Shown here in pieces: positions 14,629 to 16,494 of a DNA stretch of 64,000 nucleotides. A program made the translations under genes and the position numbers. How positions within the stretch are numbered: the stretch's first letter is position 1; every line of letters starts with the position of its first letter. Under the pieces are notes generated by a model. That model saw only the letters and a list, made by a program, of their open reading frames with translations, did no database searches and was not told the origin of the DNA. The DNA is taken from assembly GCF_001244545.1 (NCBI RefSeq), contig NZ_LN852696.1, positions 62,001-126,000 on the forward strand, in the 5' to 3' direction. The stretch comes from Candidatus Stoquefichus sp. SB1 (GTDB lineage Bacteria; Bacillota_I; Bacilli_A; Erysipelotrichales; Coprobacillaceae).

Positions 14629-15762
14629 ATGAGAAAAAAGCGACAAAGTATAACTGTTATTCTCATTTTGTTGTGTATAAGTTTTATTGTTTATTTCTTT
14701 TTTCCACAAGTTTCATGTACCCTTTCTTCCTTTAATAAAAGAGCTGTTTGGTTAACTTATTCAGATTTAGCTAAGTTTTCATATGAATCAAAAAAAGCAT
14801 TTATTAATGATTTTGAAGAAGCAATAGACAATGTTGAAAAATATAAAAATAATACAGTCATCGTACAAGTGAGACCTTTTGCTGACGCTCTCTATCAATC
14901 TCAAATATTTCCTATTTCAAAAGTGATTACACAAAGATCATCATTATCTTTTGATCCTTTAGAAGAGATGGTTAAAATTGCTCATGATCATGGTTTATCT
15001 ATAGAAGCATGGATTAATCCCTATCGAATTTCTCTCAATAAAACAACATATCAGCAATTTATCCAATTATCACCAAAAAGTTCATGGTTAGAAGATACAA
15101 GCAAATCTATAGGATATGCCACCTTTAAATATATTTTGAATCCTGCAAGTCAGGATGTAAGAGATTATATTGTTGCTGGAGTGAAAGAAATTGTAGAAAA
15201 TTATGAAGTAGATGGCATTCATTTTGATGATTATTTTTATGTTGATGGAACACATACAGGAACAACGCAGAATCAGAGACTAGATAATGTGAATGTCTTG
15301 ATTCAAGATGTTTATCAAAGTATTAAAGCAATTAATCAAAATGTCACTTTTGGAATTAGTCCTCAGGGTAATTATCAAAATTGTATCAATGAAGGTGCAG
15401 ATGTTGATACATGGTTAAAGGAAGAAGGGTTCATTGATTATCTTATGCCACAGATATATTGGAGTGATCAATATGGAACTGATGGAAAAACAAAGATGTT
15501 TACAAATCGAACAAAACAGTTTGCTGGATTAAAGCGTCGAGATGATGTTATTTTGTATGCTGGTTTAGCTTTGTATCGTGCTGGAGAAGAAGCTGATGTT
15601 GATCAAGGATGGCAAGCAACATCTGATAATTTATCTCAACAAATTCAAATTCTTTATCAAAATAAATATCAGGGATATAGTTTGTTTAATTATTCTTCAT
15701 TATTAAAAAGGACTGGTCAAAAAGAAATGGATGAACTGATTAGAGCCCATCCCTATAATTAA
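14629..15762 (+). CDS. GHL10-type (YngK/DUF187) glycosyl hydrolase-like protein
   Basis: A 377-residue membrane-anchored extracellular protein: TM segment at about residues 8-27, then a TIM-barrel domain with AVWLTYSDL, IVQVRPFADALYQS, IEAWINPYRIS, VDGIHFDDYFY and DYLMPQIYW in the order seen in YngK-like proteins. These are thought to act on envelope or extracellular polysaccharide, though biochemical data are sparse. The DDYFY segment probably carries catalytic acids. It precedes, convergently, an amidase of the cell wall. Confidence 0.87.
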   Translation: MRKKRQSITVILILLCISFIVYFFFPQVSCTLSSFNKRAVWLTYSDLAKFSYESKKAFINDFEEAIDNVEKYKNNTVIVQVRPFADALYQSQIFPISKVITQRSSLSFDPLEEMVKIAHDHGLSIEAWINPYRISLNKTTYQQFIQLSPKSSWLEDTSKSIGYATFKYILNPASQDVRDYIVAGVKEIVENYEVDGIHFDDYFYVDGTHTGTTQNQRLDNVNVLIQDVYQSIKAINQNVTFGISPQGNYQNCINEGADVDTWLKEEGFIDYLMPQIYWSDQYGTDGKTKMFTNRTKQFAGLKRRDDVILYAGLALYRAGEEADVDQGWQATSDNLSQQIQILYQNKYQGYSLFNYSSLLKRTGQKEMDELIRAHPYN

Positions 15763-15765
15763 TTC

Positions 15766-15793
15766 TTGACTTATCTAAAAGTTATGTTAAGAT
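15766..15793 (+). promoter_or_regulatory. SigA-type promoter for a small RNA
   Basis: TTGACT (15766-15771) and TAAGAT (15788-15793) are separated by 16 bp. They lie just after the GHL10 stop codon, and no reading frame follows on this strand before a terminator. Confidence 0.6.
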
Positions 15794-15799
15794 AACAAC

Positions 15800-15887
15800 G
15801 AGCCGACATAAAACCTATTTCGCCTTTATAGGTGTCGAGAAATAGGTGGATGTTAAAAAGAAAGATGAGTTTCATCTTTCTTTTAAT
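15800..15887 (+). ncRNA. Candidate structured small RNA, about 88 nt
   Basis: From the predicted start near 15800 the transcript can form CGAC-ACCTAT / ATAGGT-GTCG (15803-15838). It can alternatively form the longer pairing ACCTATTTC / GAAATAGGT (15813-15847); the two share the ACCTAT arm and exclude each other. An intrinsic terminator closes the unit. There is no coding frame and the next gene is on the opposite strand, so this looks like an independent RNA gene, not a leader. No Rfam family was recognised. Confidence 0.5.
15857..15886. terminator. Bidirectional terminator
   Basis: AAAGAAAGATGA / TCATCTTTCTTT with a 3-nt loop and A/T tracts on both sides. It serves the small RNA on the plus strand and the amidase gene on the minus strand. 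Confidence 0.85.
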
Positions 15888-16494
15888 TTTCTAAAGAATC
15901 AAGAAATTTTTCCCATTCTTCAGGATAATCCACAAAATATTTAGGACATATTTTTTTAGTGACGTCATAGTGTCTAATAATATTGTCTTGACCTAGATGA
16001 TAAGTTTTCATTAATGCCTGAACAAGTTTTTGAAGGGATTGATAAGTTTGGGTATTGAATTTTCCACTTTTATCAGGATGACAGCATTCAATAGAAATTG
16101 TATCTTTATTACGGTTATTAGAAGCATAAGCAACTTCATTTAAAGGAATACACTGAATAATTTCTCCTTTTAATCCAATAATAAAATGGCTTGATACAGA
16201 AGCTGTTTTTTTATTTTTAAGACTTTCAAAATAATCATGATTATTTTGTGCAGTAGAGCCTGGATTCGCTGTGTAATGAACAACAATGCCATTAACTCTC
16301 GGTAAATTTTTTCCACTTCTTGAATAAGGATTAACAGTTAAAAACTGATGTTGAATAGATAAACCTTCAACATTATATTCTTCGATGTCATTATGTCTTG
16401 TTGTAATATAGTATCCCCCGCCAATTCCTAAAATAATGAGGAAAATAAGCATAAATAATATTCCTTTTTTTAGTTTCTTTTTCTTTCTTTTCAT
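15883..16494 (-). CDS. Membrane-anchored N-acetylmuramoyl-L-alanine amidase (Amidase_2)
   Basis: A 203-residue protein: lysine-rich start, TM segment at about 10-30, then an amidase_2/PGRP domain. Zinc ligands are visible as the His of VVHYT and the His of RHYDV, with Cys of KICPKYF as third ligand. The enzyme cuts the bond between MurNAc and the stem peptide at the cell surface. Start at 16494 follows a ribosome-like GGGGTGAAAAA sequence. The adjacent GHL10 protein is also an envelope enzyme. Confidence 0.88.
   Translation of the reverse strand: MKRKKKKLKKGILFMLIFLIILGIGGGYYITTRHNDIEEYNVEGLSIQHQFLTVNPYSRSGKNLPRVNGIVVHYTANPGSTAQNNHDYFESLKNKKTASVSSHFIIGLKGEIIQCIPLNEVAYASNNRNKDTISIECCHPDKSGKFNTQTYQSLQKLVQALMKTYHLGQDNIIRHYDVTKKICPKYFVDYPEEWEKFLDSLEN

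Follow-up and report, generated by a model that had tools for sequence, protein, structure and literature searches.

What does a short structured RNA do that has its own promoter and terminator but no gene to control in cis? This question is raised by positions 15766-15887 of the window, i.e., of the 64,000 nt of contig NZ_LN852696.1 from Candidatus Stoquefichus sp. SB1 that were analysed. The initial annotation had described this stretch as a promoter, an RNA with two mutually exclusive folds and a terminator, and had proposed a trans-acting or ligand-sensing small RNA.

Promoter, terminator and genomic context

The RNA is located between two genes that are considered here as context only, a plus-strand gene for a glycosyl hydrolase-like 10 (GHL10) protein (14629-15762) and a convergent minus-strand gene for an N-acetylmuramoyl-L-alanine amidase (Amidase_2; 15883-16494). 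Since the preceding gene ends at 15762 and the next gene is on the other strand, there is no gene in cis at this locus, as the initial annotation had stated. The RNA contains no plus-strand ORF of at least 50 amino acids, and a short ATG frame at 15850 was seen by eye to vary among the homologues described below.

The promoter that had been claimed was found on the plus strand at 15766-15793. It is an extended -10 promoter composed of the hexamers TTGACT (15766-15771) and TAAGAT (15788-15793), which are separated by 16 nt and show 9 of 12 hexamer matches, with TGT in front of the -10 region. By itself its strength is ordinary (25 comparable sites within the same 3 kb versus 20.1 expected); the four homologues nevertheless all retain its layout. 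Six bases separate the -10 hexamer from GAGCCGAC (15800-15807, plus strand), a sequence that is invariant in the four members and whose first base is always located 7 nt after the -10 hexamer. Based on this constant spacing, the RNA probably begins with GAGCCGAC at about position 15800, and this 5′ end is a candidate pairing seed.

The claimed terminator was likewise identified. An intrinsic terminator of 13 pairs is present at 15856-15884 of the plus strand, being one of three terminator hairpins found versus 0.8 expected, and each of the four homologues has a terminator-like hairpin downstream of the RNA. At its far end, the hairpin at 15856-15884 extends into the amidase stop codon and could serve both strands; it is probably a bidirectional terminator common to the small RNA and the amidase gene.

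Homologues and covarying fold

A DNA search of the genus (two genomes) found the segment with 83% identity in the other genus member, G001. In G001 and in G019, the RNA is present at the same place, downstream of the amidase orthologues. Among the other relatives carrying the amidase gene, it directly adjoins a GHL10-type gene in G006 and is accompanied by a terminator-like hairpin without the small RNA in G030, and the remaining ones have other neighbours beside it. A first covariance model was built from the sequences of G000, G001, and G019, and the search with this three-member model revealed a diverged fourth member in G035 (E 1e-9). The latter is located elsewhere, with a gene for an RpiR-type regulator on its upstream side and an MFS gene on its downstream side, and has its own promoter and terminator; the terminator and about 100 nt separate it from the next gene. 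A 66-codon frame on the minus strand of G035 overlaps the small RNA (L161:1455-1655) and is probably not a gene.

In total, four members were found, three of which are closely related, in 4 of the 43 family genomes, with no credible one elsewhere and a single copy in the window; the covariance models were derived from the found members, and distant forms may be missed. Thirty-nine of the 43 family genomes were searched again with the covariance model R2. Within the order (315 genomes), the core pattern returned the four members and five sites taken for chance; these five (G141, G291, G248, G113, and G269) looked GC-rich, lacked the stem, and were left out of the count. In 395 genomes drawn from the class, the members of G000 and G019 were recovered together with three weak matches (E 0.004 to 0.006) that were not counted. 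Weak model matches in G011, G016, G107, G083, G197, G278, G561, G567, and others (best E 0.004 per genome) were also not counted; those shown in alignments lacked the conserved core, and the site of G011, whose sequence was read, had no promoter plus core. When 187 loci were searched for the promoter plus GAGCCG (or AAGCCG), the four members and two unrelated sites were obtained. Phages gave short chance matches only, and viral contigs gave none with a strict pattern and 120 stretches with a loose one, none of which matched R2 at E 0.1. A palindrome-like pattern yielded 119 chance stretches over the contigs; 20 of them were scanned with R2 and gave four weak matches (best E 0.0084), which were not taken as homologues, the stretches having been chosen for the same stem pattern.

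By sequence identity, the core is better conserved than its surroundings, including the neighbouring amidase gene: it is 91.1% identical to that of G001 and 85.7% identical to that of G019, compared to 79.8 and 79.4% for the amidase side (400 nt) and 64.4 and 62.2% for the promoter region (45 nt). An Rfam scan, which had been proposed as a check, returned no match in the window with release 15 at the gathering threshold and none for the homologous RNAs in L158, L159, and L161, and permissive thresholds gave nothing credible.

The folding energy of the 122-nt stretch was calculated to be -35 kcal/mol compared to -18.7 ± 3.1 kcal/mol for shuffled sequences, none of 200 being as good. The terminator contributes much of this energy; for the 66-nt core without terminator, a z value of -3.1 was obtained, with 1 of 200 shuffles as good. 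The predicted plus-strand fold consists of helix P1 (15805-15809 with 15850-15854, GACAU/AUGUU), helix P2 (15813-15821 with 15839-15847, ACCTATTTC/GAAATAGGT), and helix P3 with its loop (15822-15833, 15822-15825 pairing with 15830-15833). In P1, 89.5% of the cells are paired and no pair is compensatory. P2 (nine pairs, three of them compensatory) and P3 (four pairs, two compensatory) are 100% paired in the four homologues, i.e., all 13 pairs are complete in every member. Five of them change on both sides (C-G to U-A, C-G to A-U, U-A to C-G, C-G to U-A, and U-A to C-G) in a four-sequence alignment that was fitted to the P2/P3 hairpin and therefore favours it. When CGAC (15804-15807) paired with GUCG (15834-15837) is added to this hairpin, all 68 cells pair, the covariation score is equalled by one of 500 shuffles, and slid control structures have 32-48% of their cells paired. 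Of the two competing pairings drawn in the initial annotation, ACCTATTTC/GAAATAGGT thus proved to be conserved with compensatory changes, and the comparison of homologues and their covariation suggested there gave a positive answer for this hairpin.

As judged from these sequence comparisons, the RNA gene is solid and ordinary in kind, and it represents a small-RNA family that is absent from Rfam and supported by covariation. With high probability, the locus harbours a new stand-alone small RNA gene.

The rRNA leader as candidate partner

Trans action is the favoured and best reading of this small RNA, because no gene lies in cis, a promoter and a terminator are conserved with the RNA at two unrelated loci, and its 5′ end is conserved as well; this is the part of the initial proposal that is favoured here. 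The most specific candidate for a partner would be the 5′ end of the rRNA precursor. In G000, G001, and G019, GAGCCGAC shows full complementarity to GUCGGCUC, which is located at the predicted +1 position of an rRNA operon leader. In G035, the complementarity extends over 6 nt, the leaders of five of the six operons starting with GTCGGC (6 of the 8 letters). In the leader, GTCGGCTC again lies six bases after the -10 region, as does GAGCCGAC in the small RNA, and the first letters of the two RNAs would therefore be complementary.

The complement GTCGGCTC occurs 15 times in G000, 9 times in G001, 4 times in G019, and 25 times in G035, compared to 9, 4, 4, and 8 occurrences, respectively, for a control with the reversed pattern. 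Of these 53 places, 30 were read first and 2 of G000, the remaining ones away from plausible 23S positions, and 17 of G035 later, 3 of G000 were assigned to 23S rRNA by their distance to the 16S start, and 1 is the RNA gene. Among the sites read, the leader of an rRNA operon is the only place with GTCGGCTC common to G000, G001, and G019 besides the RNA gene and 23S rRNA.

When either the RNA or the leader was shuffled 2000 times, a helix at least as strong as the best ungapped one between the two arose 9 times with shuffled RNAs and once with shuffled leaders for G000, 4 and 3 times for G019, and 41 and 59 times for G035. These figures are post hoc, since the match had been selected following inspection of whole genomes, and they come in part from close relatives (G000, G001, and G019). 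In the window, about 1100 stretches with a length of 116 nt were compared, and 2 of them attained the strength of the G000 helix. Leaders of the GTCGGC type are present in all four genomes carrying the RNA versus 11 of the 39 others (Fisher p 0.011) and leaders with the 8-mer in three of the four versus 3 of the 39 others (p 0.006), both comparisons ignoring kinship and assembly gaps.

On balance, it appears slightly more probable than not that this complementarity is a coincidence and that the small RNA regulates mRNAs not found here, an alternative that concerns only the partner. The post hoc choice of the match argues for it, as does the fact that, of the 39 family genomes in which the search revealed no such RNA, 11 have leaders starting with GUCGGC, and three of these 11 (G005, G007, and G013) have the GTCGGCTC start. 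In several genomes without the RNA, the leader start can, as judged by eye, fold back on the leader, and such a hairpin partly explains the start. The same 8-mer complement is also present within 23S rRNA, and matches of this kind can evidently occur without having a role. Furthermore, duplex energies calculated with RNAduplex, allowing gaps, were not special: shuffled RNAs were as good in 213 of 500 cases for G000, 160 of 500 for G019, and 441 of 500 for the GUCGGC leader of G035, as well as in 158 and 285 of 500 cases for two leaders of the GCACUCGA type; for the G001 leader, of which 23 nt are available up to the contig end, the number was 12 of 500. Only one of the four readable rRNA operons of G000 starts with GUCGGCUC, the other three starting with GCACTCGAG, and three more 16S copies of this genome are too near to contig ends for the leader to be read. 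In three members, moreover, P1 is predicted to occupy the GAC of the seed to a large extent. What a coincidence does not account for is that the two complementary sequences occupy the predicted +1 of their respective RNAs and that, 23S rRNA aside, no other complement among the sites read is common to G000, G001, and G019.

Because the leader start also occurs in relatives without the RNA and the gapped duplex energies are unremarkable, pairing with rRNA is only suggested, and we consider it doubtful that the rRNA leader is a real partner of the small RNA.

Some further properties of these sequences were observed. After the -10 region, rRNA leaders of the family often start with GCACTC or GTCGGC (e.g., L350:605, L404, L405, L412, and L423), sometimes with both types within one genome, and many can form a short 5′ hairpin. 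A closely similar stretch with GTCGGCTC followed by CCTGTGGT(C/T)AATTCCACTTCCGTCAG is present in G019 and G035 (L311:1501 and L358:259); it is common to these two carriers of the small RNA and possibly belongs to a mobile element.

Alternative readings and proposed role

Helices P2 and P3 flank a 5-nt bulge on the plus strand (15834-15838; GUCGA, in G035 GUCGG), which is predicted to be unpaired. Its GUCG is invariant in the four members, with an unpaired probability of 0.81-1.00, and the flanking G-U and C-G pairs never vary, whereas the surrounding stem does. Conserved unpaired bulges are typical of protein sites. The RNA might accordingly be a protein-binding RNA in which the invariant GUCGR bulge with the two adjoining pairs docks a protein that is titrated or assisted by the RNA. 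This has a small but appreciable probability; it leaves the equal invariance of the 5′ end GAGCCGAC unexplained.

The GUCG of the bulge (15834-15837) could also form a pseudoknot with the CGAC of the 5′ end (15804-15807). This pairing fits all four members, and its pairs never vary. The only other alternative seen is that P1, the GUCG bulge, and an outside partner could compete for CGAC; the pairs vary too little for proof.

The second pairing of the initial annotation, CGAC-ACCTAT/ATAGGT-GTCG, fared differently from the first. It shows no compensatory pair, and 132 of 500 shuffles are as good on the cells paired. Forcing its CGAC/GUCG part costs 9.0 (G000), 9.6 (G001), 9.7 (G019), and 6.0 kcal/mol (G035), and the forced fold omits the ACCTAT/ATAGGT part in three of the four homologues; in G001 and G019, part of the fold can form, without covariation. 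Two mutually exclusive folds can be drawn, yet the second brings no gain over shuffles and is unsupported as drawn.

These data bear on the ligand-sensing part of the initial proposal, according to which the RNA would be an orphan element, a riboswitch left without its gene. Like the Rfam classes of riboswitches with an intrinsic terminator, it has a compact covarying fold followed by a terminator, it contains conserved unpaired bases, and for its CGAC both P1 and the bulge offer a possible pairing. Unlike them, it has no match to an Rfam riboswitch and no cis gene, a convergent gene lying downstream in G000, G001, and G019 and an independent terminator intervening in G035. As only one fold covaries, a riboswitch-like two-state element is unsupported, and we regard this explanation as very unlikely.

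Least probable of all is that there is no RNA gene and that only a shared bidirectional terminator matters, the rest being a fortuitous hairpin: the terminator is indeed common to the convergent amidase gene, and a terminator-like hairpin is also found in a relative without the RNA (L129), but the hairpin covaries, the promoter is kept in four genomes, in one of them at another locus, and the conservation exceeds that of the amidase gene.

The explanation that we prefer, with somewhat better than even confidence for the whole, is that of a small RNA about 85 nt in length that stands alone, does not code for protein, and acts in trans, with its 5′ end serving as pairing seed. The hairpin and the terminator would protect and present this 5′ end, GAGCCGAC would be the seed, and the small RNA would act by base pairing, a mode of action that we favour slightly. 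A more specific version, which we rate as rather unlikely, is an end-to-end pairing of the trans-encoded small RNA with the initial nucleotides of an rRNA precursor via the GAGCCGAC/GUCGGCUC octamers, which would couple it to rRNA synthesis. The 5′ spacer could then act as a sponge that absorbs the small RNA at times of rapid rRNA synthesis; alternatively, the small RNA could steer the processing or decay of the leader. In eukaryotes, U3 RNA pairs with the rRNA 5′ spacer, and a small RNA that pairs with this spacer and steers its processing would be somewhat similar.

In bacteria, the 23S antisense RNA of Helicobacter pylori is described as a small RNA that pairs with the leader of an rRNA precursor (Iost et al., 2019, as described in PMC8322730; PMC8708148); it is reported to be encoded opposite the leader and to lead to cleavage by RNase III (PMC8322730). 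The candidate pairing proposed here resembles this case in joining a small RNA with a rRNA precursor leader and differs from it in that the locus is separate from the leader and the match, predicted from sequence, comprises 8 nt. In Escherichia coli, as outlined in a passage of PMC7213987 on a report from 2015, the 3′ external transcribed spacer of a tRNA transcript pairs with small RNAs and acts as a sponge. The sponge version of our proposal would likewise use the spacer of a stable-RNA precursor as partner of a small RNA; here, it would be a rRNA 5′ leader in an unrelated bacterium, recognized in silico. In Salmonella, rRNA leader sequences dominate the ligands of the RNA chaperone ProQ in exponential phase, in a passage that names no small RNA partner of this kind (PMC9977716). 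Within the portion of the literature on small RNAs and pre-rRNA leaders that was covered, no trans-encoded RNA pairing with the first nucleotides of a rRNA transcript was found.

Rfam holds nothing equivalent to this RNA yet, and a covariation-supported family new to that collection would thereby be gained. If the rRNA leader were its partner, the small RNA would be linked directly to ribosome production via the 5′ end of the rRNA transcript.
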